Positions 8,058 to 41,426 of a stretch of 64,000 nucleotides of DNA are shown in pieces. The position numbers were made by a program, and so were the translations under genes. Source of the DNA: Rivularia sp. PCC 7116 (GTDB lineage: Bacteria > Cyanobacteriota > Cyanobacteriia > Cyanobacteriales > Nostocaceae). The notes under the pieces were generated by a model. The model was not told where the DNA came from. It saw nothing but the letters and a program-made list of their open reading frames with translations, and did not search any database. The DNA lies in contig NC_019678.1 in NCBI RefSeq assembly GCF_000316665.1, positions 6,138,001 to 6,202,000 on the forward strand. The letters are read 5' to 3'. Numbering within the stretch: the first letter of the stretch is position 1; each line of letters opens with the position of its first letter.

Positions 8058-8537
8058 TTAATTATTAGTGTATTTTAAAATTAAATCTATATTTTTAGCT
8101 TCTTGCTTTTGACCTTGCTGTAAATAAAGGGTTTTAGCATAGCGAAGGGATTTTTTACCTTCCGCTATATTTTTCTGACAAATTAGACTCATACCTTGCC
8201 CTTCATAGCCTAAAGCGATTTTGGAATCAAGAGAAATTGCTGTTTGAAAAGATTTTTGTGCATTCTTGCAATTAGCTTGATGCTTTTTATTCTGATTTTG
8301 TTGAAACGGTGGTATTTCATTCATCAGTTCGTAACCTCGTTCAGCATATTCCTGTGCCGTTTCAGGTTGCTTCTTAACCTCTGGTTTCTGAAAATTCTCC
8401 GTTACCGATTTGAACCAAAGGTCTACACCTATTATCATTCCAAACAAAGCAAACCCTAATATGTACGACAAAGGATTATTACTCATCAAGAATGATAATA
8501 TTGTCATTTCATTGCGTTCTCTATTCCAACGTGGCAT
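8058..8537 (-). CDS. small membrane-anchored TPR-like protein
   Basis: A 159-residue protein with one N-terminal membrane segment (LSYILGFALFGMIIGVDLWF) and then a soluble domain resembling two tetratricopeptide repeats: AQKSFQTAISLDSKIALGYE and AEGKKSLRYAKTLYLQQGQ. The ATG giving MPRWNRERNEM was chosen because CAAGGAG lies about 8 nt upstream. The longer frame would overlap the relaxase heavily. The start overlaps the end of the relaxase by 17 bp, so the two are translationally coupled. It may be an accessory mobilisation protein, but nothing in the sequence proves that. Confidence 0.65.
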   Translation of the reverse strand: MPRWNRERNEMTILSFLMSNNPLSYILGFALFGMIIGVDLWFKSVTENFQKPEVKKQPETAQEYAERGYELMNEIPPFQQNQNKKHQANCKNAQKSFQTAISLDSKIALGYEGQGMSLICQKNIAEGKKSLRYAKTLYLQQGQKQEAKNIDLILKYTNN

Positions 8538-10170
8538 AGTTTTTGACTCCTTGACGATGTTGTAATTCTTTATTCCAGGTGGTTTTCGGCTGTAACTGAA
8601 TTGAATGAGGTAAAAGCTTTTGAATGGCGATCGCACTTTTACCAGGGATGGTGATAGCTATATTTGGTACATTTCGTAGAAATCTTACAGGTGTATGAAT
8701 GTGCTGCTCTACCGAGTCAATAGATAAGTAAAGAGTTCTGTCTGTATGAGGAGCGTTTAATATAGCTAGAGATAACGATTCAATTGGTGAAGCAGTTAAC
8801 ATTGCTGCTGTTATCGGATTATCCGACATTCTTCCCATACTCAGATGAAACCAACCACCAGAACGTTTACTTCCAGGATATAAACTAAAAGTATTCGCGG
8901 TATTTTTCAATGAGTGTAGATAAGCTCCGGTATTTTCAAAAGAAAGGTTTCGGGCTAAAAATACGGCGTTACTATTACTATCTGCATATAGCAAACCACG
9001 CTGATTAAGTGTCTGTGTCAATTTGTGGGGAATACAGTAATGGTTTTGGAAATATTTTTCAACTTCTTTCCAAAGACTTTTGTCGGGTACTGGTGGTACG
9101 AATATTTTTGTCGGATATTGATGTGCAATGCTTAAGGCTTTGCGAGCTACTTGATTAGTCACCGCAGCTAGCATCTGTTCCTCTCCGAATTTATCGCGTA
9201 ACCAGATAAGTGCATCATCAAATTTACACTGATTGACTTGCATCACTAAGTCGATAGCGTTAGTTTTGGACAACCATCGGTTATCTAGATTTATCCCTAA
9301 TTCGTAAGCAACCAAACCTAAAGGCAATTCTTCACGTTCAATAGTTGTTTTGAGTATTCTTAATTCTGACTCTAATTCTTGGCGAAGTTTTTCGTTCTGT
9401 GTTGCAGTTCGCTTCAATTCGGCGAATTGTTTGAGCAAGCGAGAACGTTGATTGAGTTGGTAGTTAATTATTTCAAACTCAGGATTCAAAACTTGAATGA
9501 TTCGCTGTCGGTATTCCTCGCTAGATTCAGACATCCTAGTTTCCGGAAGAAAGCGTTCTAAATTTATAAGTTGTGAATCTTGATTTACGGCAGCATAGTA
9601 TTTTTTGAGCGTGGTATAAGTCGCTTTACTACCTTTAATCCCGCGAGAGATTCCAAGATGTTCGACACCCCTTCCGAAACTATCTTGTAATTCGGATAAT
9701 TTTATTTTTCCACCAAACAATGCCCGACAATTGAGCTTACCTTGCTCGTCCAACGGCACGATATAAGCGTGAATATGAGGTGTAATTTCGTCAAGATGTA
9801 ATTCTGCTCTAACTACTCGTTCTTCCCAAGAAGAATACAACCAATTAACTGTTGCTTCCACGAAGTTATCTAAGCGTTGTTTGTCATAAGTTCCTGCTTC
9901 TTGAGGTGCATTGGGACGGAAATAGGAAGCACTTGCACTGAGCAACATTTCTATTGCAAGAACGGCATTTGAGCGGATTTTCTGCGAACCGATTGCATGT
10001 CTTACTAAAGTTGCTAAATCTAAATTGGAAGAATCACCAATAATTCGTATATTGGTTACTTCTGGGTTTGCATTGGGGGTATCTCTTTCTCGTGCGGTAT
10101 GAGCTTCATTACCCTTGAGCATTCCCCAGCTTTTGATTTTCTGGATTTTACAGACGGCTAGCGGTATCAT
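8521..10170 (-). CDS. MobV-type relaxase fused to a primase-like Toprim region
   Basis: A 549-residue plasmid mobilisation protein. The N-terminal Mob/Pre domain has the family opening (CKIQKIKSWGMLKGNEAHT) and the metal-binding motif HLDEITPHIHAYIVP, the HxDExTPHxH signature of MobV relaxases that nick oriT and stay bound to DNA. After a coiled linker (about residues 230-285) comes a DnaG-like stretch (DLVMQVNQCKFDDALIWL). A DUF3991/Toprim-type domain follows, with ASPIESLSLAIL and LYLSID supplying the expected acidic residues. Relaxase plus primase-like part in one chain suggests nicking and priming of the transferred strand. It is followed by a coupled small gene. Confidence 0.88.
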   Translation of the reverse strand: MIPLAVCKIQKIKSWGMLKGNEAHTARERDTPNANPEVTNIRIIGDSSNLDLATLVRHAIGSQKIRSNAVLAIEMLLSASASYFRPNAPQEAGTYDKQRLDNFVEATVNWLYSSWEERVVRAELHLDEITPHIHAYIVPLDEQGKLNCRALFGGKIKLSELQDSFGRGVEHLGISRGIKGSKATYTTLKKYYAAVNQDSQLINLERFLPETRMSESSEEYRQRIIQVLNPEFEIINYQLNQRSRLLKQFAELKRTATQNEKLRQELESELRILKTTIEREELPLGLVAYELGINLDNRWLSKTNAIDLVMQVNQCKFDDALIWLRDKFGEEQMLAAVTNQVARKALSIAHQYPTKIFVPPVPDKSLWKEVEKYFQNHYCIPHKLTQTLNQRGLLYADSNSNAVFLARNLSFENTGAYLHSLKNTANTFSLYPGSKRSGGWFHLSMGRMSDNPITAAMLTASPIESLSLAILNAPHTDRTLYLSIDSVEQHIHTPVRFLRNVPNIAITIPGKSAIAIQKLLPHSIQLQPKTTWNKELQHRQGVKNYATLE

Positions 10171-11169: not shown

Positions 11170-12303
11170 ATGGGTAAAAATAATCGAAAAACAGCACAAA
11201 AAAATAGTACTCCGGTTCAATTAACTCTCGCGGCTGATATTGGTGGTAGCGGTTTGAAAGCAATTTATGCAAGCACTGACGGTAAAATTGGGAGTTTATT
11301 TATGGAACCGGAAGTAATTGCAGTACCCAAAGCTGCTATTGATGACTTATTACAAAATAATTTAGGAGTATGCGAACCTACAAATGCTGCTTGGGTGGGA
11401 TTTGGAGGAAAGTATGCAGCGGTTGGATACTTAGCTGCATCGCGCTTTTATGCTAATGCTGGATTGAAGGAGCTTAAGTACGAACGAGGTTTGTACAAAG
11501 TGTTGGCAACCATTTGGGTGTTGTCGCAAAAGCTGAAGTTGAGCAATTGTTTCAAATTCGATTTGTGTGTATTGCTTCCAGCTAGCGAATATGAATCCAG
11601 AAAGAAATTTGAAAATATTCTGCGCTCCCTTATCAAGAACTTTGAAACCCCTTCAGGAAATATGTCACTGGAGTTGGGACGATTTAATTGTTATCCAGAA
11701 GGTGCGGGAGTATTTTTACTTCATTCCAAGCGAGTAGGAGTAGAAATCGGGCAGCGCAAAAGCGCAATAATCATGATTGGATATCGCAATGCTTCAGTCT
11801 TGGTAAGCTATCGGGGAGCCTTAGACAGCGGTAAAACTTCGGATTTAGGTATGGTGCGGATGATAGAAACCGTTATGACTAAAACCAGTGGATTGTCGGA
11901 ATCAGATTTATGTAAAGCTATAGTTGCGAGCGGGTACGATATCAGCCCTACTCCTTTGTATAAGTTAACTCGCAGCACTACAGTTGCGGCTCGTAATGAG
12001 GAAGTAGCAATACTTGTAAAGGCAATCAAAGAAGCGAAAAATCTTTATATTGCAACACTCATATCCTGGTTAAACAACGTAGTTCCCCGCGATGTTGATG
12101 AAATTGTGTTTTGTGGAGGTACGGCAGATTATTTGAAGAAAGAACTTAATTCTCGTTATTCTGCTACACCTTGCATTTGGCACGGTGGGGTTGTAGTTCC
12201 CGATGCTGTAGATACGTACAAATTAGGAACGAGACTTACAGATGCTTATGGGATGTTTTTGTATTTCATGTCTGGTTCAAATTCTGTTGGTGAGGTAGCG
12301 TAA
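11170..12303 (+). CDS. parM: ParM/StbA-like actin-family partition protein
   Basis: A 377-residue actin-like ATPase. The phosphate-1 loop is LTLAADIGGSGLKAIYAS (residues about 18-35). A second phosphate-type strand is IIMIGYRNASVLVSYRG, and the adenosine motif is EIVFCGGTADYLKKEL. Length and motif order fit plasmid-segregating ParM homologues, which polymerise to push plasmid copies apart. It is followed after 1 bp by a small gene in the ParR position and preceded by a tandem-repeat region. The assignment to the ParM group rests on motifs and context; an archaeal-type actin relative (Alp) is a possible finer class. Confidence 0.82.
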   Translation: MGKNNRKTAQKNSTPVQLTLAADIGGSGLKAIYASTDGKIGSLFMEPEVIAVPKAAIDDLLQNNLGVCEPTNAAWVGFGGKYAAVGYLAASRFYANAGLKELKYERGLYKVLATIWVLSQKLKLSNCFKFDLCVLLPASEYESRKKFENILRSLIKNFETPSGNMSLELGRFNCYPEGAGVFLLHSKRVGVEIGQRKSAIIMIGYRNASVLVSYRGALDSGKTSDLGMVRMIETVMTKTSGLSESDLCKAIVASGYDISPTPLYKLTRSTTVAARNEEVAILVKAIKEAKNLYIATLISWLNNVVPRDVDEIVFCGGTADYLKKELNSRYSATPCIWHGGVVVPDAVDTYKLGTRLTDAYGMFLYFMSGSNSVGEVA

Positions 12304-12304
12304 G

Positions 12305-12745
12305 TTGAAGAAACGGAGAGTTGATTACAGCATCAGATTTCAACCTTTTGTCGGAACTCCAGAAGAAAAAGTCCTAAATTATCTAAGACATCACCAATTG
12401 AATTCTGCTAATGCTTTGATAATGCAGGCAATTCGTCCTTACTGGTTGCCTTTAGTGTTACTTGAAGATGATGTAACTCCTTTGAATGTTAAACAACAAC
12501 TAGGTAGAGATGCAGTTAGAGAGTTGTTGCTTCACGCTGATTATATTTGCTCATCTTTAGGATTGAAGCGGTTTTATAACTTACTTACAAGTGATTGGAA
12601 TTTAGCTCAAACTAATAAATCTAATGAAGTTAAACCAGAAAACAGTTCTAATATTTCTTATAAAAATGAAACAAAGCTTGTCGGACAGTTAGAAGTGGAA
12701 GTAGGGAATGGGGAATGGGGAAGTCTGGGTTCGTTTTCTGAATAA
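12305..12745 (+). CDS. small protein in the ParR position
   Basis: A 146-residue protein whose TTG start lies immediately after the parM stop, with GGTGAGG as ribosome site. The basic N-terminus (KKRRVDYSIRFQPF) and a following helix-rich region (EEKVLNYLRHHQLNSANALI) suit a ribbon-helix-helix-like DNA-binding adaptor, as ParR proteins are. I do not see diagnostic residues, so the call rests mainly on position. The C-terminal 40 residues are low complexity and end in a GGGGAATGGGGAA-type repeat, which may be an extension picked up from intergenic repeat DNA. Confidence 0.55.
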   Translation: MKKRRVDYSIRFQPFVGTPEEKVLNYLRHHQLNSANALIMQAIRPYWLPLVLLEDDVTPLNVKQQLGRDAVRELLLHADYICSSLGLKRFYNLLTSDWNLAQTNKSNEVKPENSSNISYKNETKLVGQLEVEVGNGEWGSLGSFSE

Positions 12746-12775: not shown

Positions 12776-13831
12776 ATGAGCGATACAGCAGAAAATCAAC
12801 AACCAGAAAAAAGAAAGAGAGGTAGACCTAAGAAAAATACCAATTTCTCGAATGCTTCAAATAATAATTCACAAGGTATATCTATAACCATGCAAGAAAA
12901 ACTTCAAATAGCTGAAAATTCAGATGCTGAGAATGGAATTAACCCATCTGGTGAAGCTTCTGCTCAAGATTGGGCAAAAGAATTGGAAGGTGATTCAAAT
13001 TTACCCCATACAGAATTATTACAATCAAATACAGATGAAGATAAATCAGAAATTTCGTCTCAACATGAACCTGTAACTACTGCTCCAATATCTATTAACA
13101 CTAATAATACTGCTAGCAATCAAGAAAAATTAGTCAAAATTCCCACAACTATTCATATTATAGACGGTGAAAAAGGAGGCGCAGGCAAGTCATTTGTTAG
13201 TAGAGCATTAATAGAATATTGCGCTTCAATAAAGCATAAAGTAGCAATCGTTGATGCAGATAAAAGCAACGAAGATATTTCTCAGATTTATGATAACGTG
13301 CATTCTGCTTTCTTTAGCGATGATGATAAGAAAGCCAATCAAGCCGACCACATTTTTGATTTAGCATTTGAAAAATCAGTGATTGTCAATTTACCCGCTC
13401 AAGTTTACTCAAAGGTGACTGACTGGATAAAGACGAATGATTTGGATGAGATAGGTAAGGAATATCAAATTACTTTTGTGAAATGGTTTGTATGTACGGG
13501 AGGTGTAGATTCTGTTGATTTCTTTATCAAATCTCTGAATGATTTGGGAGATAGAGTAACTCATGTATTTGTGAAAAATTTGGGATTATGCTCGGAGTGG
13601 GATTATGTAGATGAAATGCCAGATTTTCTCACTGCTAAAGAGACTCATAAATTTAAAGAGATGGATTTCCCAAAATTTCCATTCTGGGAACGAAATGTGA
13701 TTGATAGGTTAGGAATTACTTTTAATAGTGCGCTTTCTCATCCTGAAATAAAGGTGATATCGAGACAGCGAGTCAAGAATTTTCTTGCAGAAGTCCATAC
13801 AGCGTTCTCCGAGACGGGATTGGTTAAATGA
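12776..13831 (+). CDS. ParA-like P-loop ATPase with N-terminal AT-hook
   Basis: A 351-residue protein. Residues about 12-21 (KRKRGRPKKN) are an AT-hook DNA-binding motif, followed by about 100 acidic, low-complexity residues. Then comes a P-loop domain with IDGEKGGAGKSFVSRALIEY, a deviant Walker A of the ParA/MinD class, and VAIVDADKSNEDI as the following strand. The usual ParA partner motifs are weak. It could position plasmids, or act in conjugation/mobilisation like MobD-type ATPases. It overlaps the next gene by 4 bp (ATGA), so the two are coupled. Confidence 0.72.
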   Translation: MSDTAENQQPEKRKRGRPKKNTNFSNASNNNSQGISITMQEKLQIAENSDAENGINPSGEASAQDWAKELEGDSNLPHTELLQSNTDEDKSEISSQHEPVTTAPISINTNNTASNQEKLVKIPTTIHIIDGEKGGAGKSFVSRALIEYCASIKHKVAIVDADKSNEDISQIYDNVHSAFFSDDDKKANQADHIFDLAFEKSVIVNLPAQVYSKVTDWIKTNDLDEIGKEYQITFVKWFVCTGGVDSVDFFIKSLNDLGDRVTHVFVKNLGLCSEWDYVDEMPDFLTAKETHKFKEMDFPKFPFWERNVIDRLGITFNSALSHPEIKVISRQRVKNFLAEVHTAFSETGLVK

Positions 13832-14556
13832 CACAGGAAGTTGCTCCTGATGATAAAAACTCAAATCGGGAAGAAAATGATCAAGTTAATAAGTTTCTGG
13901 CTGAAGCTTTGAAAGGTAAAAGCGAAGGGTTTAAAAAGCAGGTATTGAGTTTTGCTGTGAGTTGTGGTTTATCCCAAGATGACCCCTTATTTCTGATTTT
14001 GGTAGCTACCGGACAATTAGAAGTAATGTTAAAAGATGCGCCGGAAGTTCTACAAGTGTTGTTTGAAACTTGGAATCAAGATTTGGCTCGCAATTTACAC
14101 CAAGTGGAAAAAGTTGCGGTAGAACGTCAGAAAGTTGCTATCGATAGAGCTGCTCACGCTTTAATTCGTAAAGCACAGTTTACAGAAAGCAGAAAACTTT
14201 TAACTTCTGTACTTCCGGCAGGTTTATTATTATTTTTCACCCTGGGAGTTGGAGCAATTTTCGGAATTTTAACGCCTCCCTGGATTGCTGGGATGATAAG
14301 CGGTGGATATACAAAGGTGCAATCAAGTACTTTAACCTGGGATGAGTTGGAAGCAATGAAATGGGCGATGTCTAGGGAAGGGAAGTTTGCTAGAAATTTG
14401 ATTGATTGGAACAGGGGTTATTTGGACAATGGAGAATGCATTAAAGATGCTCAGAGATTGGGTGTAATTTTATCTCAGTACGGACGTAAAGCGAAGTCAG
14501 GACATTGTGTTGTTTGGGCTACTCCACCGACAAAGCGTAAGTTTGTAGAACCATAA
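13828..14556 (+). CDS. membrane-associated plasmid protein (possibly DUF6753-like)
   Basis: A 242-residue protein. An N-terminal helical region contains KSEGFKKQVLSFAVSCGLSQ and DDPLFLILVATGQLEVMLKD. A coiled segment follows (VEKVAVERQKVAIDRAAHAL), then one or two hydrophobic segments (VLPAGLLLFFTLGVGAIFGI and adjacent residues to about 155). It resembles cyanobacterial plasmid proteins I remember as DUF6753, but the name is uncertain. It is coupled to the ParA-like gene by an ATGA overlap, suggesting a membrane anchor or partner for that ATPase. Confidence 0.6.
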   Translation: MTQEVAPDDKNSNREENDQVNKFLAEALKGKSEGFKKQVLSFAVSCGLSQDDPLFLILVATGQLEVMLKDAPEVLQVLFETWNQDLARNLHQVEKVAVERQKVAIDRAAHALIRKAQFTESRKLLTSVLPAGLLLFFTLGVGAIFGILTPPWIAGMISGGYTKVQSSTLTWDELEAMKWAMSREGKFARNLIDWNRGYLDNGECIKDAQRLGVILSQYGRKAKSGHCVVWATPPTKRKFVEP

Positions 14557-14620: not shown

Positions 14621-17600
14621 ATGTCAATTGCTCTAGAATATTTCTGTACTAAAACAGGTAAACCGATTGAAGTTGATGATAAACCTTTAATTGAGACTTT
14701 AGAAAATACTGCTGCGGAGTATCTTTATGGTAATGATGTTAAGTGGAGTATTGGTATCGTTTATCCTGGAATTTCAACCGAGGATGATTTGACTAAGCAT
14801 CAAGATAAGTATCTTCAGTTTTCTAAGAAAGACCGACTGTACTTTTCCGATAAACCGGGATTACGGTTACAAATTTTTGACGAACCACATTTTGGTGCTG
14901 CATACGGTTCTTTACTATTTGGCGAATGCGAGTATTTTTCCGAAGTCGAAGATATTAAAGTGTTAATTGTAGATGATGAAACTGGGGAGTGTGGTGGGAT
15001 TTTACCAGAAGAACAGGCTTTGTTACTTGTGGGAGATGGGGATGGACGGATTGACCATAAATTACACGAACAATTGGGCAATATTCCTTCTACTCAGTTC
15101 CAGGTTAGAGGGATTATTAAATCCCAGGAGGGAATCAATGCAAATCAATCCATTAAAGGCACTTTAGCACCAGTTAATCTTTCTAATATTGGAAGCGGTT
15201 ATGATTTAGTGCTTTCTAAATCTCAATTGGGTAAGGGACGCAAAAATAAACTTTATAACGAAAAAACCGGGATAAGAATTAATCGACAAACAGAAGTGGA
15301 ACCTGGAGAATATACTCTTACAATCGGTATTGGTAATCGCGAAAATGCTCGCACCCTAGAAGCTGCAACTGGCGCTCAATATTGGGTAGGATTGCCTGAA
15401 GGTGCAAAAAATGACGCTTTACCCAGGGTACAAGAGCGTTTAGCACAATTAGATAGTATTGCGAATGACCCTCGTAAGGTTGCACTAGATTACATTCAAA
15501 GGGTGGAAAGAAGACTCGCAGGTGATTTTAAAAGAGAAACCGGGACTAAGTTAATCCATGATTTTGATTTAGATGATTTCGGAGATGTGATTAACGAAGC
15601 TTTTGGAGATAACGACACTGAATTAATGTATCAACTTCTGAAAGCTGATTTAGAAGGACATTTGCAAATTATTGAAACACCAAAAGTTATTAACTTTTTA
15701 TCAGAACATCTTCAGGAACAATATAGAGATTGCGCTACTGGAAGAGTTATCAAATTTCAGTCTTCGATGCTGATGACCTGCAACAGTTTGAAAGATTGGG
15801 AGATTTGCGATCGCACTAAACCCGAAGGTGCGAAAGTCTTATATCACCGTCCCCCAGTTGGTAATACAAACGTAATGGCAGTACTTACGAATCGCTTATT
15901 GGAAGGAGAAGAAGTCAATCCCGGTAGTATTCAACTTAATCGTCGCACAGCAGCGGCTCTTAATAGTGACTGCGATGGTGATAAACCTTTAACTGCATTG
16001 GCTCAAGATTTTCCCAGCACCACCCAAGAAATTCAGTTCAAGACTCAACCGGAAAACCGCTATCCAGAAAGTGTTTTACTCCAAAAAGCAGCTTACTGTG
16101 GAAGTTTTGAGAAGATAGCTTTGGAAGCTGCTCATGACAACATTGGGATTGTAGCTAACTTAGCTATGAAAGCAATAGCAATTGAATCGGAGTGCAGTCA
16201 AATTCCTGCCAACGAACAAAGAACATTTTTAGCAAATTTATCAGCTAACCTTGCTCGATGCGCTTCTTATGATTTACCTAAAGAAGCAGAACATTTACGA
16301 GAGTTATTAAATGATTTTAGCGAATATAATCGTCGTCTAAACTTTGAAAATCAAAGTTCAAATAATTCATTTCAAGACTACTTAATACCACTACAGGAAC
16401 CAGAATTAAATAATACTATTACATCCGAACAAGTTTCGGAAGGATTAGCAAAAGCAAGACAGCTATTTCATCATTTATCTGGTGTAATTGACCAACAGTT
16501 AAAAATTGAAGGACAAAGCGGTAAAAGTGCGCTGCGTAGTGACCCAGAAGTCATAAAATTATGTACAGAATTATGTGCTTATCCTCAAGTTTACGCTCTT
16601 GAAGACCGTAATAAAAAATGGGCTTATCTAGATAAGCCGATTAGAAGTAATTTACATACCGCACTTGATTTATTAGTTCAAGAAACTAACCAGCATTTTG
16701 AAAGTAATGTTCTTACCCCTCGTCCGCTATCTCAATTTAGAGATTTATTTAAAGATATTGATTTTAATTCTTCACAGCTTGAGATTGCAACAACTTACAA
16801 GCAAGAATATGAAGGATTAATTAGAGCAGCGCACGATATTAAGCAACAAGTAGAAATAAATCGACATCAACCGAATTTAAGAATGGTAGCCAAATCTAAG
16901 AAGGGGAATCAAATAGAAATTCGATTGAATCAAAAAGATACCAAGCATCACCAAGCTTATTCGCTCAATAAAATGCAAATTTCTCTACTTAAAGATAAGA
17001 ATCACTATAAAACCTTTGCTGTAGTACCGGGAGAAACTACCATAAATAAACGTGGGGAGATTGTACCAGCAAAAAAGCAGTTGGGATTGTTAGCGGAAGC
17101 TTCTATAAGTGAGAATAAAGAGACTTTTCAAACACTACATCAAAAGAACAAAAGTAACTGGATTGAACTTGGTAAACTTGATATTGATATTAACCCTGCT
17201 CTTAATTCTTCTCATGAGAAAGCTGCTTTCAAATTAGCCTATGAATATGCTGCCAAAACTAGAGAAAATATTCCAGAGAAAGAAAGATTAGCCATAGCAG
17301 CAGCGATGTGGAATCTATCATCCAAACGAGTAAAAGAAGAATACGATATTAATAAGCGTGCTGGTGCAGTTTTTGCTATTTTTGGAGAAGAGATTAAAGA
17401 GCAGCTTAATCAACTTCAGTTTACCGAACTTACAGTTGTGGGAACTCACAGAGATGCTTCCGAACACAAAGGGAGAGCTTGGAAAGGGGAGAAAGTCCCG
17501 ATACAAATTGAACTAGCTCCCAGCTATATTGATTCATCATCCCAGGGACGTTGGTTAATCGCAGAAGGGAAAAAACTGGGAATGCTTTCACCTTCCTATG

Positions 17601-18400
17601 CTCAACTTCCAATAAATGCGATCGCCAAAGCTACCATAACCAGTGAAGCAAGTACAGGGGTGATTATTACTACACCAAAAGGCAATTCAATTGATGTGAA
17701 TAAGTTAAAATCGGGAGCTTTTGCTGATGTGGATTGGAATAAACAGGTTTATCAAGCTATTGTAACCATTTCCGTTAAACCTAGTAGAAATCCTCAGAAA
17801 CCAGATATCGGAATTGCAATGATTAAAGACAAGAAGTTAGGAGAATTAAAACCCGAATCATTTGAGAAACTTACAGCAGTATTGAAAGCTCATAATATTC
17901 CGATACAGGGTTACACCGTCAAAGGTAAAATTACCGCTGCTCCACCTTCAGCAGCAAAAGTTGTAGTTGATGCGAGTACGGTAGAGTATCCCCAAGAGTG
18001 GAGTATAATTTCACAGAATGACATAAACGAAAATAAACTTTTATTAGCACAACAAATTCAAGCTAATCGTACATTGGAAGTTGCACCAATTATTCATGCT
18101 TTTCTTTCAACTCAGGACAAAACAACGGTAGCAGGGAAGTTAAATACAGTAAGCTGGAATCCACAAACGCAAGAGATTACTTTATGGACTAATGGTTCAT
18201 CTAATCCGAAAATGCGAGTTAAATATTCCGATGGGGAGTATCAAGCATTGTCAATTGGTAATACTATTGAAGAAATTGAAGCTAATGGTTTAAGCGAAGC
18301 AGATGTTCAACACTTTCAACAGATAGCACCTTCTATTTTCGCGAGAATCGCTGGAAAACAATCGGTAAAAATAGATAATAATATGGAAAATAGTTACTAA
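14621..18400 (+). CDS. giant plasmid protein with double-psi-beta-barrel RNA polymerase signature
   Basis: A 1259-residue protein. Residues 448-454 read NSDCDGD, matching the NADFDGD catalytic loop of RNA polymerase beta-prime with all three metal-binding Asp (450, 452, 454). Upstream, RPPVGN (410-415) and SIQLNRRTAAAL parallel the RNAP blocks NRAPTLHR and AIQLHPLVCPAF. Residues 159-164 (QFQVRG), K179-G180 and DLVLSKSQLGKGRK (195-208) resemble the first barrel of single-chain polymerases of the YonO/QDE-1 kind (FQxRxGxxKG... SxxKF). The rest (about 480-1259) is unrecognised, with a helical middle and a strand-rich end. The family comparison is from memory. The role could be a plasmid transcriptase, a primase or an inactive relative. 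It lies directly downstream of the partition genes. Confidence 0.6.
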   Translation: MSIALEYFCTKTGKPIEVDDKPLIETLENTAAEYLYGNDVKWSIGIVYPGISTEDDLTKHQDKYLQFSKKDRLYFSDKPGLRLQIFDEPHFGAAYGSLLFGECEYFSEVEDIKVLIVDDETGECGGILPEEQALLLVGDGDGRIDHKLHEQLGNIPSTQFQVRGIIKSQEGINANQSIKGTLAPVNLSNIGSGYDLVLSKSQLGKGRKNKLYNEKTGIRINRQTEVEPGEYTLTIGIGNRENARTLEAATGAQYWVGLPEGAKNDALPRVQERLAQLDSIANDPRKVALDYIQRVERRLAGDFKRETGTKLIHDFDLDDFGDVINEAFGDNDTELMYQLLKADLEGHLQIIETPKVINFLSEHLQEQYRDCATGRVIKFQSSMLMTCNSLKDWEICDRTKPEGAKVLYHRPPVGNTNVMAVLTNRLLEGEEVNPGSIQLNRRTAAALNSDCDGDKPLTALAQDFPSTTQEIQFKTQPENRYPESVLLQKAAYCGSFEKIALEAAHDNIGIVANLAMKAIAIESECSQIPANEQRTFLANLSANLARCASYDLPKEAEHLRELLNDFSEYNRRLNFENQSSNNSFQDYLIPLQEPELNNTITSEQVSEGLAKARQLFHHLSGVIDQQLKIEGQSGKSALRSDPEVIKLCTELCAYPQVYALEDRNKKWAYLDKPIRSNLHTALDLLVQETNQHFESNVLTPRPLSQFRDLFKDIDFNSSQLEIATTYKQEYEGLIRAAHDIKQQVEINRHQPNLRMVAKSKKGNQIEIRLNQKDTKHHQAYSLNKMQISLLKDKNHYKTFAVVPGETTINKRGEIVPAKKQLGLLAEASISENKETFQTLHQKNKSNWIELGKLDIDINPALNSSHEKAAFKLAYEYAAKTRENIPEKERLAIAAAMWNLSSKRVKEEYDINKRAGAVFAIFGEEIKEQLNQLQFTELTVVGTHRDASEHKGRAWKGEKVPIQIELAPSYIDSSSQGRWLIAEGKKLGMLSPSYAQLPINAIAKATITSEASTGVIITTPKGNSIDVNKLKSGAFADVDWNKQVYQAIVTISVKPSRNPQKPDIGIAMIKDKKLGELKPESFEKLTAVLKAHNIPIQGYTVKGKITAAPPSAAKVVVDASTVEYPQEWSIISQNDINENKLLLAQQIQANRTLEVAPIIHAFLSTQDKTTVAGKLNTVSWNPQTQEITLWTNGSSNPKMRVKYSDGEYQALSIGNTIEEIEANGLSEADVQHFQQIAPSIFARIAGKQSVKIDNNMENSY

Positions 18401-22765: not shown

Positions 22766-25700
22766 TTAAGCTTTATCTACAACTTGAAAATCTTCTTCAA
22801 TTAAACCCAATTCTTTATTCAAAGCGGATTGTTCTTTCATTACTGCTTGTAATTCTGCTGCTTTAGAAAACGGTTGGTCTTTTTGAAGAGATAAATCTTT
22901 TTCTGCTTGTTTTAGTTTTTGAAGTTGATTTTCTGCTTGTTTCAATTCTTTATCAATACCGCTATTTACACAATATTCCAAAGCAGAAATAGTTCCTATC
23001 GGAGTCTTTTTCACAGAAGCTTTGTAAATCGCATTTCCGATTAGTTGAATCGTACAACCTCCAATATCATGTACGATTGATAAATCAAATCCAGCAAACT
23101 GACCAAGTGAAAAAGTACCGTATTCGACTTTGATTTCTAAGTCCCGTACAATAGCGTTAATATGCTCACCTGCGGCTTTACGCTTAATCACTCGCACTTT
23201 CTTACCATCATTCGTATAGAAATTAATACTAAACCTATCTCCAGCAACAGATACAGTACGGTTACTGTCTGCTTTATGATTTTGTAATTTGATGCTAATT
23301 TTCTCAATTCTATCGGGAAGTTTCTCTAAATCTCGATGAATGGTAATTTGCTGATTAATATGGTCGCGCTCTTCTTGGAGTAATTTAGCAACTTCTGAAT
23401 CTAACTCTACTTTACGCATCAACCTGGGGTCGCCGCTAGCGGTTGCCATGACTTCGGCGTAAGATAAGACGATATCGGTACAGTCATCAATGCTACGAGC
23501 GGTATTTCTCCCAGCTAAAGCAGCTTCTATAAATTCGGCTTTGGTTTTAGAAGTTTGATACAAGTAACCATCTGGACTTAACCCTGCAACTTTTTTACCT
23601 TCTGCATCCTGATACGGTTTACCCTGGGTAACGTATCGATATATCTTAACTTTAGAGTTGTAATTACCTTGTCTAACCGAACGTCCTGCTCTTTGTGTAT
23701 GGTCTGTAGGTCGCCAAGGACAATCCAAGTCGTGGGCTGCAATTACGTAATCTTGAACGTTTGTCCCAACACCCATCTTGGCTGTTGAACCAATAAATAC
23801 CCGAATTTTTCGTTGTCGTACCGCTCGGAATAAAGCTGATTTCTGTTCGTCAGTTTTAGCATCGTGGATAAATGCAATTTCTTCAGTTGGTACACCACGT
23901 TCTATCAGTTGGCTTTTTATATAGCTATAAACCGTAAATCTATCTGAGTTGTTTTCCTTCGGGGTTCCCACATCGCAAAATACCAGTTGAGTCAAACGTT
24001 CGGCTTGCGTCGCTTCCCATATTCGGAAGATATTATCGATTGCAATGTCAACTTTGGTGGGAAAATGGCTTAAAGCATCTATTTCTTCCGGTTCGAGAAA
24101 TTCACAAAGCACGTCTTGGCTTAAACAACGTAAATCAACCACCCCTTGACGAATATGGGTTGTAATTCGAGGCATATTATCTTCTGTTGATTCTACCTCT
24201 CTTGCTTTGATTGCTTCAGCTCTTTGAGCAACGTAATCAAAAAACTTGAGTTGTTCTTCTGTCGCTGGTACTTCTTGAGTAACATACTCTTTCTCTGGTT
24301 TGGGTAAATTCAAATCTTCGTCAGTTAGGATATCTGCAACCTGCCAGAATAACTGTCTCCACTCCGGAATATTATTAAACACTGCCAATCTGCTTTTAAC
24401 TTCCAGAGTTCCTTGGGGAGTAATTTCGGCACCTACTTTGATTTCTGCAAAGTTTGACACCCAAGCATCAAAATGTAACAGTCCTAATTGCTGTAAAGTT
24501 TCGTACTGTAGATATATTTGATTGACCCAGGCTTCAGCTAAAGTGTTGGTAATTGGTGTAGCTGTCATTAAGGCAACACCCCGACCTGCACCGTGCTTGT
24601 AACTCATATAGCGAGTTTTCATCAGAAAATCTTTAGCACGGTAAGAAGCACTGCTGGGAACTCCTAAGACTCGATTTATTTTGGTGTTGAGGTCGAGATT
24701 TTTTACCTGTTGCGATTCGTCGTAGAAAATCCAATCAATACCCAACTCATCAAAAAATACGGTATTATCCTTAGTTTCTGCATTAGCTACCGCATTAATA
24801 TTTTCTGATAATCGCGTCAATTTCTTTTCTAAATTCTTCATTACCCGTTTGGTACGTCTACCGTTGCTTTTGGCTGCAAGGTAATCAGTTTCTACCATTT
24901 TTGATTCTTCTTCTAGAAATTGCTTAATCGTATCTGGATGCAAAGGTAATTTACTAAAAGCTGTATGACTCAGAATGATTAAATCCCAATCTCCCGTAGC
25001 AATTCTCGAAGCCAACTCGCGTCGTTTTTTAGCTTCCATTTCGGCACTTCCAGCAATCAACAATCGCATTTGAGGATACATTTGAATTGCTTCACTAGCC
25101 ATTTGTTCTGGTAAATGGTCCATTACTACTAAGCAAGGTTTGTAGCAAATTCCCAGACGTTTGAGTTCTTGAGAAGCTGCGATAGATTCGCTTGTCTTAC
25201 CTGCACCAACTGCATGACCTAGTAAAGTATTTCCAGAAGATATTATTCTCCAAATCGCGTTGAGTTGATGGGAACGTAATTTATTGCGCCATTGTGGGTT
25301 CATTCCTGGTAGCTCCAGATGCGAACCGTCGAAATGTCGCGGCACAAGGCTATTGTACTGCTGGTTGTAAGTTTGAGTAAGTCGTTCCGCACGTTGGAAA
25401 TCGCTCCAAATCCAACGTTTAAATAATTCTTTAAGATTTTCTTGCTTTGTTTGAGCAATTCTTGTCGCTTCTGGATTTTCTACATAGGATTCATCAACTT
25501 TATCTCGAACTATAGGAACCCGAAGATTTAGTGCTAATTCAATTAGTTGATGTGCCATTATCCGCTCTGTGCCATAAATTTGACAGTTATTTTGAGATTG
25601 AAGCAGATTTTTACAAATTTGTACTTCCCAAGTCGCAGTTGCTTTACTGTGATAAACATAGATATCGTCAGCATCTACATTTAAAGTTTCAGCGATAAAA

Positions 25701-27682
25701 TCTGTAATATCTTGAGTTGGAATCCAAGGAGAACCCAAACGCACGTAGATATCTCCTGGAAGCAAGGGAGTTGGTTGGACTTTTTCTAAAGCTTCGACGT
25801 TGACTTTTAATTCTGGATTTGTTTTTACCGCACTTTGAGCAATTTCTAGCTTGTTTCTGACGTTACCCGACAAATATTCATCGCTTGTTACCCATCGTTC
25901 AAGTTTTGGGTCAAAATGAATTAGTTTATCCTTCTGTAATTCACAAATAATATCTTGTGGAGGTTGGGAAAGTAATTTCGTCATGAAATCTATATCAATA
26001 CGTCCCTTCTCGCTCAAACTATAAATTAATGCATCCAATGCTGTATCTGCACTTGTTTTTGGTTCATATTCACGGATGGTGCGTTTGCTAAAAATATCAG
26101 TTTTACTTGCTGTCTTACTATCGGGGTCATAGTTTTCTAGTGCGAGTAATAACGGATACTCTGGGTCTGATGAAAATACTCGACGATTACCTACAGAGTG
26201 TAAATATCCGTAGCTTCTAATAAAACTGTCGTAAGCATGATTGAGACGTTTTTGTGCTTGAGATAATTGTTTGTCAGTACCACCACAAGATTGGATAAAG
26301 AAAACCTCTTTAACTACTTCTCGCAACCGAATCAGCCAGAATAAGCGCAAACGAGGTATACCAATCACGTTTATCCGCTCTAATTTTCCCTCCATAACTT
26401 GCCAAGGATGGTTCTCGTACCAAATCAAGGAAAAAGGTTTGATTTTATTTTGTAAATCTGGAGGAATTAATATTGATTTTGATTTTCTAGTGATTTTATT
26501 CTTTGGTTTTGCATCTTCAGTTTCGAGATAAATTCCTTCTGGTAGACGGGTAAATGCAGTTCTAATCGCTGATATTAAATCTCTTCCATCGCTTGCTAAC
26601 CCCAGACGATTAGCTCCACCATAAAGTTTGTCTACGGTTAGTTTTCCTAGAAGCATTTCTGGATTATTTTTATAGTAGCAAGGCATCAATAACGGCGAAC
26701 CATCGGAAGATGTTAATCCGCTATCGCAAACTTCAAGCCATTGAGTTGAAGATGGTTCTTGTTCGGGTTGACGCTTTTGTAAAATAATTAAATCGGTGGT
26801 GACTTGAGTATTAGTGAATGCCATGAAAGCATTACTGGGTAAGCGCATTGCTCCTACTAAGTCAGCGCTTTTTGCAAGTAATTCCCGTACTCCCCTACTA
26901 CGACGAGATTGTAGTGTTCCAACAGAAGTAATAAAAGCAATTAATCCACCAGGACGAATCAAGTCAAGGGATTTGATAAAGAAGTAGTCGTGTAGATTGT
27001 AAATTGGTAGTTTATTGTATTTTGGGTCGTTAGGGGTGATATTGCTAAAAGGTACGTTACCGATGGCTAAATCAAAGTAATTTCGTGGTAGCATCACATC
27101 TTCAAAACCCTTGATATAAATATCGGCTTCCGGGTAAAGTTGTTGAGCAATGCGACCTGTGATTGAATCAAGTTCGATACCAGTCCATTTAGCACGACGA
27201 TTCCAAGGTGTGGGTGCGAGTCCCAGGAATAAACCACAACCCATACTCGGTTCTAGAATACGACTTCCGCTAAAACCAAGATGTTTTAGTCCTTGATAAA
27301 TTTCTTGGATGATTTCTGGTGTGGTGTAGTATGCATTAATAATGCTTTTTCTAGCTGCTTGATACTCTGTTGGTGTGAGTAATGCTTTTAGTTGATTACC
27401 AAGATGTTCCCAACTAGGTTTAAGAGGTTCTTCAAATATTTCTGGTGCAATTCCCCAACCTAGATATTCGGCAAGGATTTGTTGTTCAGTAGGTGTGGGA
27501 TAACGGTTTTCTTGGTCAAGTTTTTTGCTTAATTTGATTGCTTCAATATTCTTAGCAGCTTTAGTTTTTATTCCTCCTTTACCTATAGTGTGAGTGAGTC
27601 GGAAATTTTTAGGTAGAGTAGTTTGAGTGTTTTGATAATTGATGGTTTGCTCGAATAAAGATAGTTGATAGGCTTGTGTCAT
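22766..27682 (-). CDS. giant DNA methylase-SNF2 helicase fusion (DarB-like)
   Basis: A 1638-residue protein. An N-terminal N6-adenine methyltransferase has motif I SRILEPSMGCGLFLG (about residue 145) and motif IV AIGNVPFSN (about 205). A large superfamily 2 helicase follows, with Walker A LLGHAVGAGKT (about 820), DEAH-box variant FYDESQQV, STAKMGVGTNVQDY and motif VI QRAGRSVRQG (about 1330). The tail is coiled coil. This arrangement is known from phage P1 DarB and plasmid proteins that protect incoming DNA from restriction, and from some methylase-helicases of defence islands. With ArdA directly upstream, an anti-restriction role is the best reading. All motifs look intact. Confidence 0.85.
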   Translation of the reverse strand: MTQAYQLSLFEQTINYQNTQTTLPKNFRLTHTIGKGGIKTKAAKNIEAIKLSKKLDQENRYPTPTEQQILAEYLGWGIAPEIFEEPLKPSWEHLGNQLKALLTPTEYQAARKSIINAYYTTPEIIQEIYQGLKHLGFSGSRILEPSMGCGLFLGLAPTPWNRRAKWTGIELDSITGRIAQQLYPEADIYIKGFEDVMLPRNYFDLAIGNVPFSNITPNDPKYNKLPIYNLHDYFFIKSLDLIRPGGLIAFITSVGTLQSRRSRGVRELLAKSADLVGAMRLPSNAFMAFTNTQVTTDLIILQKRQPEQEPSSTQWLEVCDSGLTSSDGSPLLMPCYYKNNPEMLLGKLTVDKLYGGANRLGLASDGRDLISAIRTAFTRLPEGIYLETEDAKPKNKITRKSKSILIPPDLQNKIKPFSLIWYENHPWQVMEGKLERINVIGIPRLRLFWLIRLREVVKEVFFIQSCGGTDKQLSQAQKRLNHAYDSFIRSYGYLHSVGNRRVFSSDPEYPLLLALENYDPDSKTASKTDIFSKRTIREYEPKTSADTALDALIYSLSEKGRIDIDFMTKLLSQPPQDIICELQKDKLIHFDPKLERWVTSDEYLSGNVRNKLEIAQSAVKTNPELKVNVEALEKVQPTPLLPGDIYVRLGSPWIPTQDITDFIAETLNVDADDIYVYHSKATATWEVQICKNLLQSQNNCQIYGTERIMAHQLIELALNLRVPIVRDKVDESYVENPEATRIAQTKQENLKELFKRWIWSDFQRAERLTQTYNQQYNSLVPRHFDGSHLELPGMNPQWRNKLRSHQLNAIWRIISSGNTLLGHAVGAGKTSESIAASQELKRLGICYKPCLVVMDHLPEQMASEAIQMYPQMRLLIAGSAEMEAKKRRELASRIATGDWDLIILSHTAFSKLPLHPDTIKQFLEEESKMVETDYLAAKSNGRRTKRVMKNLEKKLTRLSENINAVANAETKDNTVFFDELGIDWIFYDESQQVKNLDLNTKINRVLGVPSSASYRAKDFLMKTRYMSYKHGAGRGVALMTATPITNTLAEAWVNQIYLQYETLQQLGLLHFDAWVSNFAEIKVGAEITPQGTLEVKSRLAVFNNIPEWRQLFWQVADILTDEDLNLPKPEKEYVTQEVPATEEQLKFFDYVAQRAEAIKAREVESTEDNMPRITTHIRQGVVDLRCLSQDVLCEFLEPEEIDALSHFPTKVDIAIDNIFRIWEATQAERLTQLVFCDVGTPKENNSDRFTVYSYIKSQLIERGVPTEEIAFIHDAKTDEQKSALFRAVRQRKIRVFIGSTAKMGVGTNVQDYVIAAHDLDCPWRPTDHTQRAGRSVRQGNYNSKVKIYRYVTQGKPYQDAEGKKVAGLSPDGYLYQTSKTKAEFIEAALAGRNTARSIDDCTDIVLSYAEVMATASGDPRLMRKVELDSEVAKLLQEERDHINQQITIHRDLEKLPDRIEKISIKLQNHKADSNRTVSVAGDRFSINFYTNDGKKVRVIKRKAAGEHINAIVRDLEIKVEYGTFSLGQFAGFDLSIVHDIGGCTIQLIGNAIYKASVKKTPIGTISALEYCVNSGIDKELKQAENQLQKLKQAEKDLSLQKDQPFSKAAELQAVMKEQSALNKELGLIEEDFQVVDKA

Positions 27683-30502: not shown

Positions 30503-31592
30503 CTACCCATCGCTTTCCATAATGAAACAATAGTCCGGGTGCAAAAGGTTTTACCAACACCGGGACCACCTGTAATAATCATGATTTTTGAGTAAGCTGC
30601 CGTTTCAACTGCTTGTAGCTGCTCCGTTGATAATGAAACTTTGCGGCTTTGGCTAAAACGCTCCAACCAATTATGGACGCGGGGTATGTCTGTATTTATT
30701 GCTTGATGCAACCGAGAAAGTATCAGTTGAGCTAGGTTTTGTTCGGTATGGAAGAAGGTTGGTTTGTAGCAAAGTAATGTTTTATCAGTATCTCTTTCTC
30801 TAACTAGTTCATCACTGAGGGACATATCGCAGATAACTTTTGTTAGAGCATCTTCTTGTGGTTGATGTTCGTCAGTTTTTAACTTTTCACAAAGCTGTTG
30901 TATTAATTCCGGCTGGGGTAAATAACAATGTCCCGAATCTGCTGCTTCGCTTAAAACGTGAATAATACCAGCTTTATATCGAAATTCCGAATCTGGAGGA
31001 ACACCCAAATTACGAGCAATTTTATCCGCAGTAAGAAACCCAATTCCATAAATATCGGTTGCTAGCTGGTATGGGTTTTCGTTAACTTTATTGATTGCTA
31101 AATCACCGTAATTTTTGTAAATCTTTACCGCGTAGGTTGTTGAAACACCATGACTTTGAAGAAATACCATCACTTCTTTTATGGCTCGTTGCTCCTTCCA
31201 AGCTTTCTGAATCATGGCAATACGTTTCTTTGCAATGCCATTCACTTCTTGCAACCGTTCAATTTGGTTATCAATAATATCGAGGGTTTCTGTACCAAAA
31301 CAAGCGACGATGCGTTTTGCTGTTACAGGTCCAACACCCTTGATTAAACCGCTACCTAAATACTTTTCGATTCCGGTGATTGTTGCTGGTTTGGTTTCTT
31401 TATAGTTAGTAACTTGAAATTGCAAACCATATTGCGGATGTTCTCGCCAGAAACCATTTAATTGAAGAGTTTGTCCGGGCTGAATACCTGCAAAGCTGCC
31501 CGTAATTGTAGTTAATTCCGATACCCTTGGACGCTGCAACCGCGCTACCGTATAACCCGATTCTTCGGAGTGATAGGTTAAGCGCTCAACCT
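30484..31592 (-). pseudogene. recD2: recD2 helicase, N-terminal part (broken gene)
   Basis: N-terminal half of RecD2. An OB-like start is readable from about 31592 (VERLTYHSEESGYTVARLQR, without a start codon), then tandem helix-hairpin-helix region (GLIKGVGPVTAKRIVACFG), a second HhH (YQLATDIYGIGFLTADKIA), and Walker A IMIITGGPGVGKTFCTRTIV. It stops at LWKAMGR, after which IIRNS comes from the inserted element. Upstream, the first 20 or so residues are missing where sequence of the neighbouring NACHT gene begins. The gene is therefore broken at both sides. Confidence 0.85.
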
Positions 31593-34019: not shown

Positions 34020-35053
34020 AGGTTGATAAAACTGCTTTGGAGGGGAGAGATTTTTCGGGTGCTGTGGTTAAGGGAGCGAATTTTTCTGATATCAGTTTGC
34101 GCGATGTTAATTTTGCAGATGCAAAGTTAATTGAAAGTTTTTTTACTAAAATCTTTGGCACAATCTTCTCAATTGCTTATAGTTTTGATGGTCAATTAAT
34201 AGCTACTGGTGATGGTGATGGTGTTGTTCGTATATGGGAAGTTGCTAGTAATAAAGAAATATTAACTTGCAATGGACATACTGGCGGAATACTTTCGGTT
34301 GACTTTAGTTCTGATAGTTATAAATTAGCTAGCAGTAGTTACGATGGAAAAATTAGATTATGGGATACTTGCACTGGTAAATGCTTAGTAGCTTTGCAGG
34401 GACATAGCAGTTCTGTATACTCAGTTGTATTCTGTTCTGAAGATAAAATTATTGCTAGTGGCAGTTCTGACGGCACAGTGAGATTATGGAATATTAACAC
34501 TGGTCAATGCTTACAAATTCTACAGAGTAATACTAATTCAGTACACTCGATTGTATTTAATCCCAATAATAAGATGCTGGCTAGTTGCGGTAATCATAAC
34601 ACCATAGAACTATGGGATATTCAAACTTACCAATGTTTAAAAACTTTACAAGGACACACAAATTTTGTAGCTTCAGTTGCTTTTAGTCCTGACGGTAAGA
34701 CACTTGCGAGTGGAGGTTACGATCAAACTGTAAAATTGTGGAATGTGAACACAGGCAAATGTGAATCAACATTGCAAGCCCATAATGTGTCAGTATTAGC
34801 AGTTGCTTTTAGCCCTGATGGAAAGATATTAGCTAGTGGGCATGACAAAACTATCCAATTATGGCATTTAGAAACAGGTGAATGTCTTAAAACATTAAAG
34901 GGACACTTCCATTTAGTACGTTCAATTGCTTTTAGCCCAGATGGAGAAACACTTGCTAGTGGTAGTTATGACAAGACAGTGAGATTCTGGAGTATTGCTA
35001 CAGCAGAATGCCAAAAAGTTTTACAGGGTCATAGCACTTGGGTAAATCTGTAA
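34010..35053 (+). pseudogene. pentapeptide + seven WD40 repeats (middle part of the split NACHT-WD40 gene)
   Basis: Continuation of the NACHT gene in a different frame. It is joined if the G8 tract at 33990-33997 is read as G6 or G9. It starts with pentapeptide repeats (LEGRDFSGAVVKGANF, then SLRDVNFADAKL) and continues with seven WD40 blades such as VRIWEVASNKEILTCNGHTG and VKLWNVNTGKC. WD40 propellers in STAND proteins are usually the sensor. The frame ends at [10 protein letters not shown] where a further shift occurs. Without the upstream frame there is no good ribosome site, so it is treated as a fragment. Confidence 0.75.
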
Positions 35054-40419: not shown

Positions 40420-41382
40420 ATGATTTCCAGTCAATTTATCGATATTAATAATTTTCAACGTGCTTGGGAAAAGGTTGCTGATAAACGCGGTTGCGCGGGT
40501 GTTGATGGTGAAACTATTAGTAGTTTTGCTAGCAATCAAACGGTTAATGTTTATCAGTTAATGAACTCTGTTGCTGATGGTAGCTATCAACCTTTTCCTT
40601 GCAAGCAGGTAATTATTCCCAAAAGAAACGGTTCTCAAAGAGAGTTAAAAATTCCTACAATTCGAGACAGAATTGTTCAGCAAGCTCTATTAAATGTAAT
40701 TAGTCCGTTAATGGAAGAGAAATTTTCACCTGTAAGTTTTGCTTATCGTCCTAATTTATCTTATATCAATGCGGTAGAAAAAATAGCTGACTGGCGAGAC
40801 ATGGGTTATGTCTGGGTTTTGGATGCTGATATCGTCAAGTTTTTTGATAATATTGACCATCATCGCTTATTACAACAGGTAAGATTACATATTGACCATC
40901 CAGGTATTTTATGTTTAATTAAAGCTTGGATTTCGGTTGGTGTGGAAACTAGAGAAGGGCTAATCTTACCTCAAAAGGGTATTCCTCAAGGTGCGGTTAT
41001 TTCTCCAATTTTGGCAAATATTTATCTCCATGAATTTGATGAAATTATTAGCGCTAGTGATTTAGAAATTGTGCGTTATGCTGATGATTTTTTGGTTTTA
41101 TCAACTAGTCAAGAACGAATCGCGATCGCAAAATCGCAAGTGATTGATTTATTGGATTCGCTGGGGTTAGAAATAAATACTGATAAAACCCAAATTACTA
41201 GCTTTGAACGCGGTTTTCGTTTTTTAGGTCATGGTTTCTTATCAGATGCTATTTTCCCTGTAGATACAAATAAAGCCAAGTTGAAGTCAGGGATTGAAAC
41301 TAATCGCGAGAAAACGAGAACTAGAAAAACTAGTAAAAAAAAACTTTATCACAACCCATATCGGAACAAGAAAGTAGTTTAG
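40420..41382 (+). CDS. CRISPR-associated reverse transcriptase (RT part of a split RT-Cas1)
   Basis: A 320-residue reverse transcriptase of the group II-intron-like kind used by type III CRISPR adaptation. It has GCAGVDGETISSF near the start, VIIPKRNGSQRELKIPTIRD, VLDADIVKFFDNI (first catalytic Asp), PQGAVISPILANIYLHEFD, and RYADDFLVLS with the YADD pair D222/D223. The RT core is complete. The frame ends after a Lys-rich tail at an A9 tract; one -1 slip there would continue straight into the Cas1 frame, giving the usual RT-Cas1 fusion. Such enzymes copy RNA into new spacers. Heptamer repeats, not a clear ribosome site, precede the ATG. Confidence 0.9.
   Translation: MISSQFIDINNFQRAWEKVADKRGCAGVDGETISSFASNQTVNVYQLMNSVADGSYQPFPCKQVIIPKRNGSQRELKIPTIRDRIVQQALLNVISPLMEEKFSPVSFAYRPNLSYINAVEKIADWRDMGYVWVLDADIVKFFDNIDHHRLLQQVRLHIDHPGILCLIKAWISVGVETREGLILPQKGIPQGAVISPILANIYLHEFDEIISASDLEIVRYADDFLVLSTSQERIAIAKSQVIDLLDSLGLEINTDKTQITSFERGFRFLGHGFLSDAIFPVDTNKAKLKSGIETNREKTRTRKTSKKKLYHNPYRNKKVV
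41335..41343 (+). other. A9 homopolymer at the RT/Cas1 frame junction
   Basis: Nine A in a row read AAA AAA AAA (three Lys) in the RT frame. A -1 slip, or one extra A in the transcript, makes the next codon ACT and continues as TLSQPISEQESSLELAEASN into Cas1. A-rich tracts of this length are classical sites for ribosomal -1 slippage and RNA-polymerase slippage. A recent one-base deletion or a sequencing error is the alternative. Confidence 0.6.
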
Positions 41383-41426
41383 AGTTAGCCGAAGCTTCTA
41401 ACTCAATAACCAACGGTTTTGCTGGT

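Follow-up and report, generated by a model that had tools for sequence, protein, structure and literature searches.

What kind of enzyme, if any, is encoded at positions 14621-18400 of a 64,000-nucleotide stretch of the Rivularia sp. PCC 7116 genome (contig NC_019678.1, positions 6,138,001 to 6,202,000; hereafter the window), and in which process would it serve the genetic element whose relaxase and partition genes lie beside it? The gene is one uninterrupted plus-strand frame of 1259 amino acids from ATG to stop, and its product belongs to a cyanobacterial family for which sequence homology, catalytic residues conserved in kind and in their order, purifying selection, and the cassette context are documented below. 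The window protein is probably an active RNA polymerase (RNAP) working for its element, and the comparisons support placing the family nearest to the YonO/QDE-1 side of the two-barrel polymerase superfamily; from these data we infer the barrel fold, the catalysis and the choice of template.

Gene and predicted active site

The preliminary description of this DNA, made from the letters and their translations, had recognized in the protein QFQVRG, K179-G180, D195...K205-G206, R410-P-P412, SIQLNRRTAAAL (residues 436-447, directly before NSDCDGD) and, at residues 448-454, NSDCDGD with all three Asp. The gene and its motifs are real, each lying at the residues given there, and the Asp triad DxDGD characteristic of the two-barrel superfamily is thus present in a protein whose composition predicts about 0.011 matches to D.DGD. 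The two basic residues of the superfamily, which should come from the other half, would be K179 and K205, placed in the first barrel by prediction, and both polymerase halves appear to lie in one open frame, as in YonO-like RNAPs. The relevant positions are as follows (A1 is the 39-row family alignment defined below):

14621..18400, plus strand: two-barrel polymerase homologue of the YonO/QDE-1 type by sequence kinship (also via the relative L091), single chain, 1259 amino acids
15095..15112, plus strand: QFQVRG, residues 159-164; Q161 and R163 invariant in A1, the VR motif of YonO opposite
15155..15160, plus strand: K179-G180, predicted first barrel; both present in 52 of 52 cores
15203..15238, plus strand: DLVLSKSQLGKG, residues 195-206, D195...K205-G206; K205 is the second Lys, IIFTKSQFK of YonO opposite
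15848..15865, plus strand: RPPVGN, residues 410-415; R-x-P, with RSP of YonO and RAP of RpoC1 opposite
15962..15982, plus strand: NSDCDGD, residues 448-454; the Asp triad of the second barrel, predicted to bind metal
16523..16528, plus strand: K635-S636, belonging to a D-x-x-K-S element that is conserved past the barrel; in the window protein Q632 stands in place of the Asp
16901..18397, plus strand: C-terminal part past residue 760, conserved in part among relatives and without a Pfam match at E 0.01

Conservation and selection

The D.DGD motif is present in 84 of 86 family open reading frames (ORFs) or fragments, and in one of 71 other ORFs of at least 400 amino acids in the fetched loci, that one being the YonO sequence (the YonO-relative loci L055-L060 and the ORFs with NADFDGD had been removed from this control beforehand). 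A chance motif was ruled out because of this conservation across the family. In an alignment of 44 rows (50 minus 6), K179, K205, R410, D450 and D452 each occur in 43 rows and D454 in all 44, the sole exception being L013, where D454 is the only one of the six residues left unchanged. When L013, L016, L020, L030 and L039 are dropped from the 44, the 39 chosen rows of A1 have all six residues invariant. A wider set of 52 cores, obtained from 57 non-redundant ORFs by leaving out L013 and four incomplete ORFs, retains K179, K205, D450, D452 and D454 without exception, with R410 in 45 cores, Cys in 6 and Thr in 1; the preliminary description had named loss of the three Asp in homologues as one of two results that would refute it, and all 52 cores keep them.

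The degenerate homologue L013 (L013:6001-8775) lies on a Leptolyngbya boryana plasmid that also carries a second, longer member, and its residue losses fit a decayed paralogue. The gene of the window itself is under purifying selection: compared with L002, a homologue of 91% identity, the ratio of nonsynonymous to synonymous substitution rates (dN/dS) amounts to 0.11 over the entire gene; among segments it ranges from 0.06 (residues 400-530) to 0.15 (residues 760-1259).

Kinship with two-barrel polymerases

Similarity to known two-barrel polymerases was significant at the level of profiles, which points to common descent of the family with them. The profile of the 52 cores, aligned by hhalign (whose E-values here are those of single comparisons) with that of seven YonO-type proteins, gave E 1.3e-8 and a probability of 95.6 over 422 columns, in register at QxR, KG, S-x-x-K, R-S-P and DxDGD, compared with E 0.65 for the YonO alignment reversed as a decoy and 0.048 for the best of 40 block-shuffled controls. 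Each putative half of the active site also matches the YonO-type profile separately (residues 1-300, E 9.9e-5; residues 330-545, E 4e-6), in agreement with the earlier proposal of a one-chain polymerase with both halves. The resemblance of the R-x-P...DxDGD segment to RNAP beta-prime, proposed there as well, is borne out by an in-register match of the DxDGD segment to the RpoC1 of the host (E 9.5e-5); among the 78 proteins compared with this segment the best unrelated one reached E 0.0013, and relatives of YonO were four of the best five, the single sequence of YonO itself standing outside them.

A link to the RNA-dependent RNA polymerases (RdRPs) of eukaryotic RNA interference (RNAi) comes through L091, a relative recovered with the family from a collection of viral contigs (tblastn against the window core, E 7e-11, relative to candidate stretches only; against the family profile, E 5.5e-55). 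This protein exceeds the cut-off of the Pfam RdRP family PF05183 (38.2 against 23.8 bits, E 9.5e-10), and it alone does so among the relatives scanned; the window protein has no PF05183 match. In a Pfam scan of 39 members, which returned 36 families at E ≤10, most of them surely by chance, RdRP was matched by four members, all under the cut-off (best E 3.9e-5; best A1 member 23.0 bits), and Rpb1 domain 2 by two (best 0.083). The Pfam RdRP query found places in four of 120 genomes, none above the cut-off, and three of these (G067, G102, G119) overlap with matches of the window protein and the fourth (G094) with one of the family profile. Among PHROGs, the same 39 members matched YonO's own phrog_8308 (two members, best 5e-5), phrog_4291 'RNA-dependent RNA polymerase' (three, best 5.3e-4) and phrog_34895, of unknown function (18, best 5.9e-50). 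Two of the three matches in a PDB profile search were RNA polymerase IV subunit 1 (E 0.49 and 0.5), on the R-x-P...DxDGD segment.

Distribution and diversity of the family

Relatives of the window protein were found by tblastn in 78 of 72,556 plasmid records, and in 36 of these one match spans 80% or more of the query; all hosts among the plasmid matches listed (60 rows) are cyanobacteria, and the annotation in these is nearly always 'hypothetical protein'. A paralogue from Pseudanabaena as query gave 82 plasmid records at E ≤0.01, partly the same as those of the window protein, and L091 as tblastn query gave 36, cyanobacterial without exception. Of 291 genomes from the order to which the window belongs, 71 have a match; in a sample of the phylum searched with the A1 profile, 32 of 292 do. 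The window protein had no match in 50,697 phage records, the Pseudanabaena paralogue and L091 matched no phage record either, and seven scans of the viral-contig collection yielded two contigs of uncertain identity, L091 and L092 (refound as L094 and L095).

Sixteen plasmid records, all selected for bearing a member, were viewed whole, and 11 of them contain a single match; in Nostoc sp. C052, five plasmids bear a member. The proposition that every large plasmid has one was rejected on account of two others in this strain, F (223 kb) and G (95 kb), which are without a member. The open frames of members range from about 700 to 3100 amino acids, some being cut by contig ends, and in a tree of 54 cores the window protein forms a clade with L019, L021, L022 and L023 (support 1.0). 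In Trichormus variabilis 0441 (L016:6001-9874) the member is split into two consecutive ORFs, the first ending past DxDGD. A compact clade (alignment A2: L051, L080-L084, L086, L087) consists mostly of proteins of about 890 amino acids, with at least one member on a multi-megabase contig (G154:C1); its R410 position is occupied by Cys in 6 of 8 proteins, Thr in 1 and Arg in 1, and NPMRHWGD or a near variant precedes DxDGD and resembles a motif of the RDR polymerases.

Genomic context

The genes preceding the polymerase in the window form a cassette of the type found on plasmids:

8521..10170, minus strand: MobV/Pre-type relaxase (PF01076, E 9.3e-26)
11170..12303, plus strand: ParM/StbA-like partition protein; no Pfam family matches it, and the annotation ParM/StbA comes from its relatives by phmmer
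12305..12745, plus strand: small gene of unknown function between the ParM-like and ParA-like genes, TTG start
12776..13831, plus strand: ParA-like ATPase, its relatives being annotated CobQ; the match to CbiA is weak, at 25.2 bits where the cut-off is 25.4
13828..14556, plus strand: DUF6753 protein directly upstream of the polymerase (E 5.8e-98)

The adjoining partition genes, already seen in the preliminary description, are real, and a similar series of ParM, ParA-like, DUF6753 and polymerase genes is found in L002 and on three free plasmids (L004, L005 and L006); a second copy of the whole cassette lies at 2.19 Mb of the same genome. DUF6753, of which no mention was found in the open-licence literature, stands upstream of the polymerase also in L001, L002, L004, L005, L006 and the second copy. 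In L004, L005 and L006 a small minus-strand gene comes just before the polymerase, and in L006 a TnpB gene breaks the series and no relaxase was found within the stretch. By phmmer, a ParM relative is present in seven of the 14 plasmid loci L003-L016 (L004, L005, L006, L008, L014, L015 and L016), on the opposite strand in L008, L014 and L015; annotation adds L007. The contig comprises 8,698,463 of the 8,728,773 bases of the genome and bears rpoB, rpoC1 and rpoC2; the cassette is therefore chromosomal here, and 'plasmid' describes the kin of the element, not its present place. The earlier designation of a plasmid protein is accordingly apt for the type of cassette and for the relatives, which reside mostly on plasmids, and not for the copy in Rivularia sp. 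PCC 7116.

Ribonuclease H and other neighbours in relatives

Some relatives carry a ribonuclease H (RNase H) domain in the polymerase chain. In L026, which was chosen without regard to RNase H, the domain occupies residues 1269-1398 of a frame of 1612 amino acids with its acidic residues, which we take to be catalytic, in place. The fused domain of L093 (2017-2147) also keeps the acidic residues, and two such domains occur in L096, the first at 2182-2314 and the second, which looks decayed, at 2414-2501, the alignment covering the second only. Pfam RNase H is over the cut-off in 3 of 20 whole records, two of the three having been chosen for RNase H, and in each case it lies within or close to the polymerase chain; a fourth match, in the record of L003, is under the cut-off and far from the polymerase. 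Separate genes occur in the viral-collection contigs: upstream of the L091 polymerase, an RNase H-like gene (match to RVT_3 at E 3.6e-5; to Pfam RNase_H at 0.0084, under the cut-off) ends at a distance of about 130 bases, and the L092 polymerase is preceded by an RNase H gene, one other gene standing between the two. By phmmer, the other loci scanned gave no RNase H, most of the genome-search loci having short flanks. These domains in some relatives suggest a connection with the metabolism of RNA-DNA hybrids or primers.

Genes for single-stranded DNA-binding proteins are found near L091, L093 and L096. An HU-like gene is located directly downstream of the polymerase in L092 (L092:7717-8298), and annotated DNA-binding or HU genes are located downstream of YonO (L050:35835-36113) and of its Psychrobacillus phage homologue (L055:3880-4093).

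Proposed function and alternatives

In the mechanism that we propose, K179 and K205 of the first barrel and D450, D452 and D454 of the second would together make up a single two-metal active site, which would join ribonucleotides on a DNA template; the polymerase would lay RNA on the DNA of the element, as a primer or an R-loop, for replication or maintenance, and RNase H, in the same chain in some relatives, would trim the RNA laid down. If, in the members with the fusion, RNA on DNA is meant for removal, as the fusion suggests, primers or R-loops fit better than messenger RNA. This role in the replication or maintenance of the element is our leading proposal, though a tentative one and somewhat less likely than not.

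Several results weigh against an active polymerase with such a role. Scanned on its own, the window protein matches no family of Pfam, NCBIfam or PHROGs, its core reaching only phrog_34895 at E 0.065, and the Pfam RdRP query has no match in the genome of the window; the polymerase of L092 is likewise without a Pfam match. Residues 545-760 against the YonO alignment (E 0.21), residues 1-300 against RpoB (E 0.33) and the single YonO sequence against A1 (probability 0.4) were not significant, and D.DGD occurs in four of the seven YonO-type proteins, none being present, as read, in L057, L058 and L060. The best match of the PDB profile search was a coiled coil (E 0.33), A2 and A6 gave no match in such searches, and AlphaFold, with alignments of 6 and 4 sequences only, returned a mean predicted local distance difference test score (pLDDT) of 36.8 and 32.7, respectively, too low for the models to bear on the fold. 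As to the role, the window protein has no fused RNase H, no RNase H was found in the window by phmmer (which missed the weak one of L091 too), two of the loci with the fusion, L093 and L096, were chosen for their ribonuclease H annotation, and two plasmids of Nostoc sp. C052 have no family member. Finally, 8 of 15 family plasmids carry a gene for DUF3854, which we take to be a domain of CyRepA1. The earlier statement that no Rep protein is visible holds for DUF3854-type genes in the window, where none was found (other Rep families were not searched), and fails for these plasmids; the polymerase is therefore not just a stand-in for an absent Rep, and the notion that it replaces Rep is weakened. 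In Rivularia sp. PCC 7116 itself, genes with DUF3854 map to 6.76 and 2.30 Mb, the nearest about 0.6 Mb away, and the window protein has no DUF3854 domain in Pfam.

The polymerase could instead be a transcriptase dedicated to the element, reading a set of plasmid genes from promoters of its own in the manner of YonO, with RNase H only clearing R-loops. This is a possibility to be taken seriously, nearly as likely as the role proposed above. Coexistence with DUF3854 genes is easier to understand if the polymerase is not the initiator, the HU-like gene downstream in L092 has its counterpart beside YonO and the Psychrobacillus phage homologue, and YonO, the closest characterized relative, is a processive late-gene RNAP according to passages of PMC5467207. 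The fusion with RNase H, however, is hard to square with the release of RNA as messenger, and the genes nearest to the polymerase in the window are maintenance genes.

RNA templates, as used by QDE-1 or RDR enzymes in regulation or defence, are improbable. The family passed by L091 is indeed the eukaryotic RdRP of Pfam, and phrog_4291 is matched by 3 of 39 members, but the template cannot be read off sequence kinship (the relevant passages of PMC5467207 give YonO a strong preference for DNA), and the neighbours are relaxase and partition genes; PADLOC matches among the 39 members are weak and scattered (four families, at most three members each, best E 2.6e-4), on which ground a defence system was also set aside. 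A DNA polymerase of the PolD type replicating the element is very improbable. PolD has a motif resembling NCDGD. Archaeal PolD is assigned to the two-barrel superfamily in PMC7281927, yet among 25 of the 36 Pfam families matched there is no PolD family, and RdRP and Rpb1 domain 2 are there. That the protein is a catalytically dead or structural relative, or its motif an accident, has hardly any probability left, since the loss of most catalytic residues in L013 is opposed by the presence of both Lys and the three Asp in all the cores (L013 and the four incomplete ORFs left out) and by the low dN/dS, overall and in every segment.

Relation to known systems

The kind of polymerase is already known. 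YonO of SPbeta (phrog_8308) is a proven processive DNA-dependent RNAP with an essential Asp triad, and YonO-like proteins in cyanobacterial genomes were already stated by Forrest et al. 2017 (both in passages of PMC5467207). The window family shares with YonO the single chain and the order of QxR, KG, S-x-x-K, R-S-P and DxDGD; it differs in its location on cyanobacterial plasmids and chromosomes, in the relaxase and partition genes beside the window copy, in chains of up to about 3000 amino acids and in the RNase H fused to some members. YonO-like phage RNAPs are encoded by a phage and transcribe its late genes; the first of these does not suit the window protein, which, like the Pseudanabaena paralogue and L091, has no match in the phage records and has relaxase and partition genes as context. 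Single-chain RNAPs of non-phage mobile elements, single-subunit RNAPs of plasmids among them, are named in portions of PMC7824862 and PMC10770324, the latter counting 23 two-barrel families, and the likeness of our family to them is one of description only.

With the eukaryotic RNAi RdRPs such as QDE-1 (PF05183), the likeness consists in L091 above the cut-off and four A1 members below it; the family differs in being bacterial and in its mobile-element context, and the window protein itself has no match. RpoC1, the beta-prime of the cellular RNAP, is similar in the R-x-P...DxDGD segment, in register, and no match was seen past about 55 to 80 columns; in the multisubunit enzymes the two halves are in two subunits, whereas here both are predicted in one chain of 1259 amino acids. 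CyRepA1 (Slr7037) is, similarly, a large plasmid-borne cyanobacterial protein tied to plasmid maintenance, with primase and helicase domains according to PMC9978351; DUF3854 occurs besides the polymerase on those 8 of 15 plasmids. We found no account of the plasmid cassette, of the range of chain lengths or of the fusions with RNase H: among the papers listed by searches of the open-licence literature, none deals with a cyanobacterial plasmid polymerase of this type or with its fusion to RNase H.

Other features of the window

Four further loci of the window were recorded beside the polymerase cassette:

22766-27682, minus strand: protein of 1638 amino acids that has an N6-methylase-like domain and a helicase C-terminal domain
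31527-35053: NACHT protein whose restriction-endonuclease-like domain is inactive, followed by a WD40 repeat protein
40420-42551: reverse transcriptase gene, then cas1; a long CRISPR-like array follows at about 43138-50370, with 97 unit copies spaced mostly 68 to 76 bases apart
50915-56158: TnsA-TnsB-like fusion (TnsA-like at the N terminus, with an integrase core and a C terminus of Mu type), then ORFs of 379 and 465 amino acids

The TnsA-TnsB-like locus comes directly after the array, and a CRISPR-associated transposon is possible.

Significance

A one-chain polymerase that lays primers or R-loops on large cyanobacterial plasmids, sometimes fused to RNase H, and whose family would be a bacterial reservoir with one protein that passes the Pfam profile of the eukaryotic RdRPs of RNA interference, would be an undescribed type of enzyme, a proposal that we regard as rather unlikely in its entirety. 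The family also adds bacterial members to the lineage of YonO and the RNAi polymerases.

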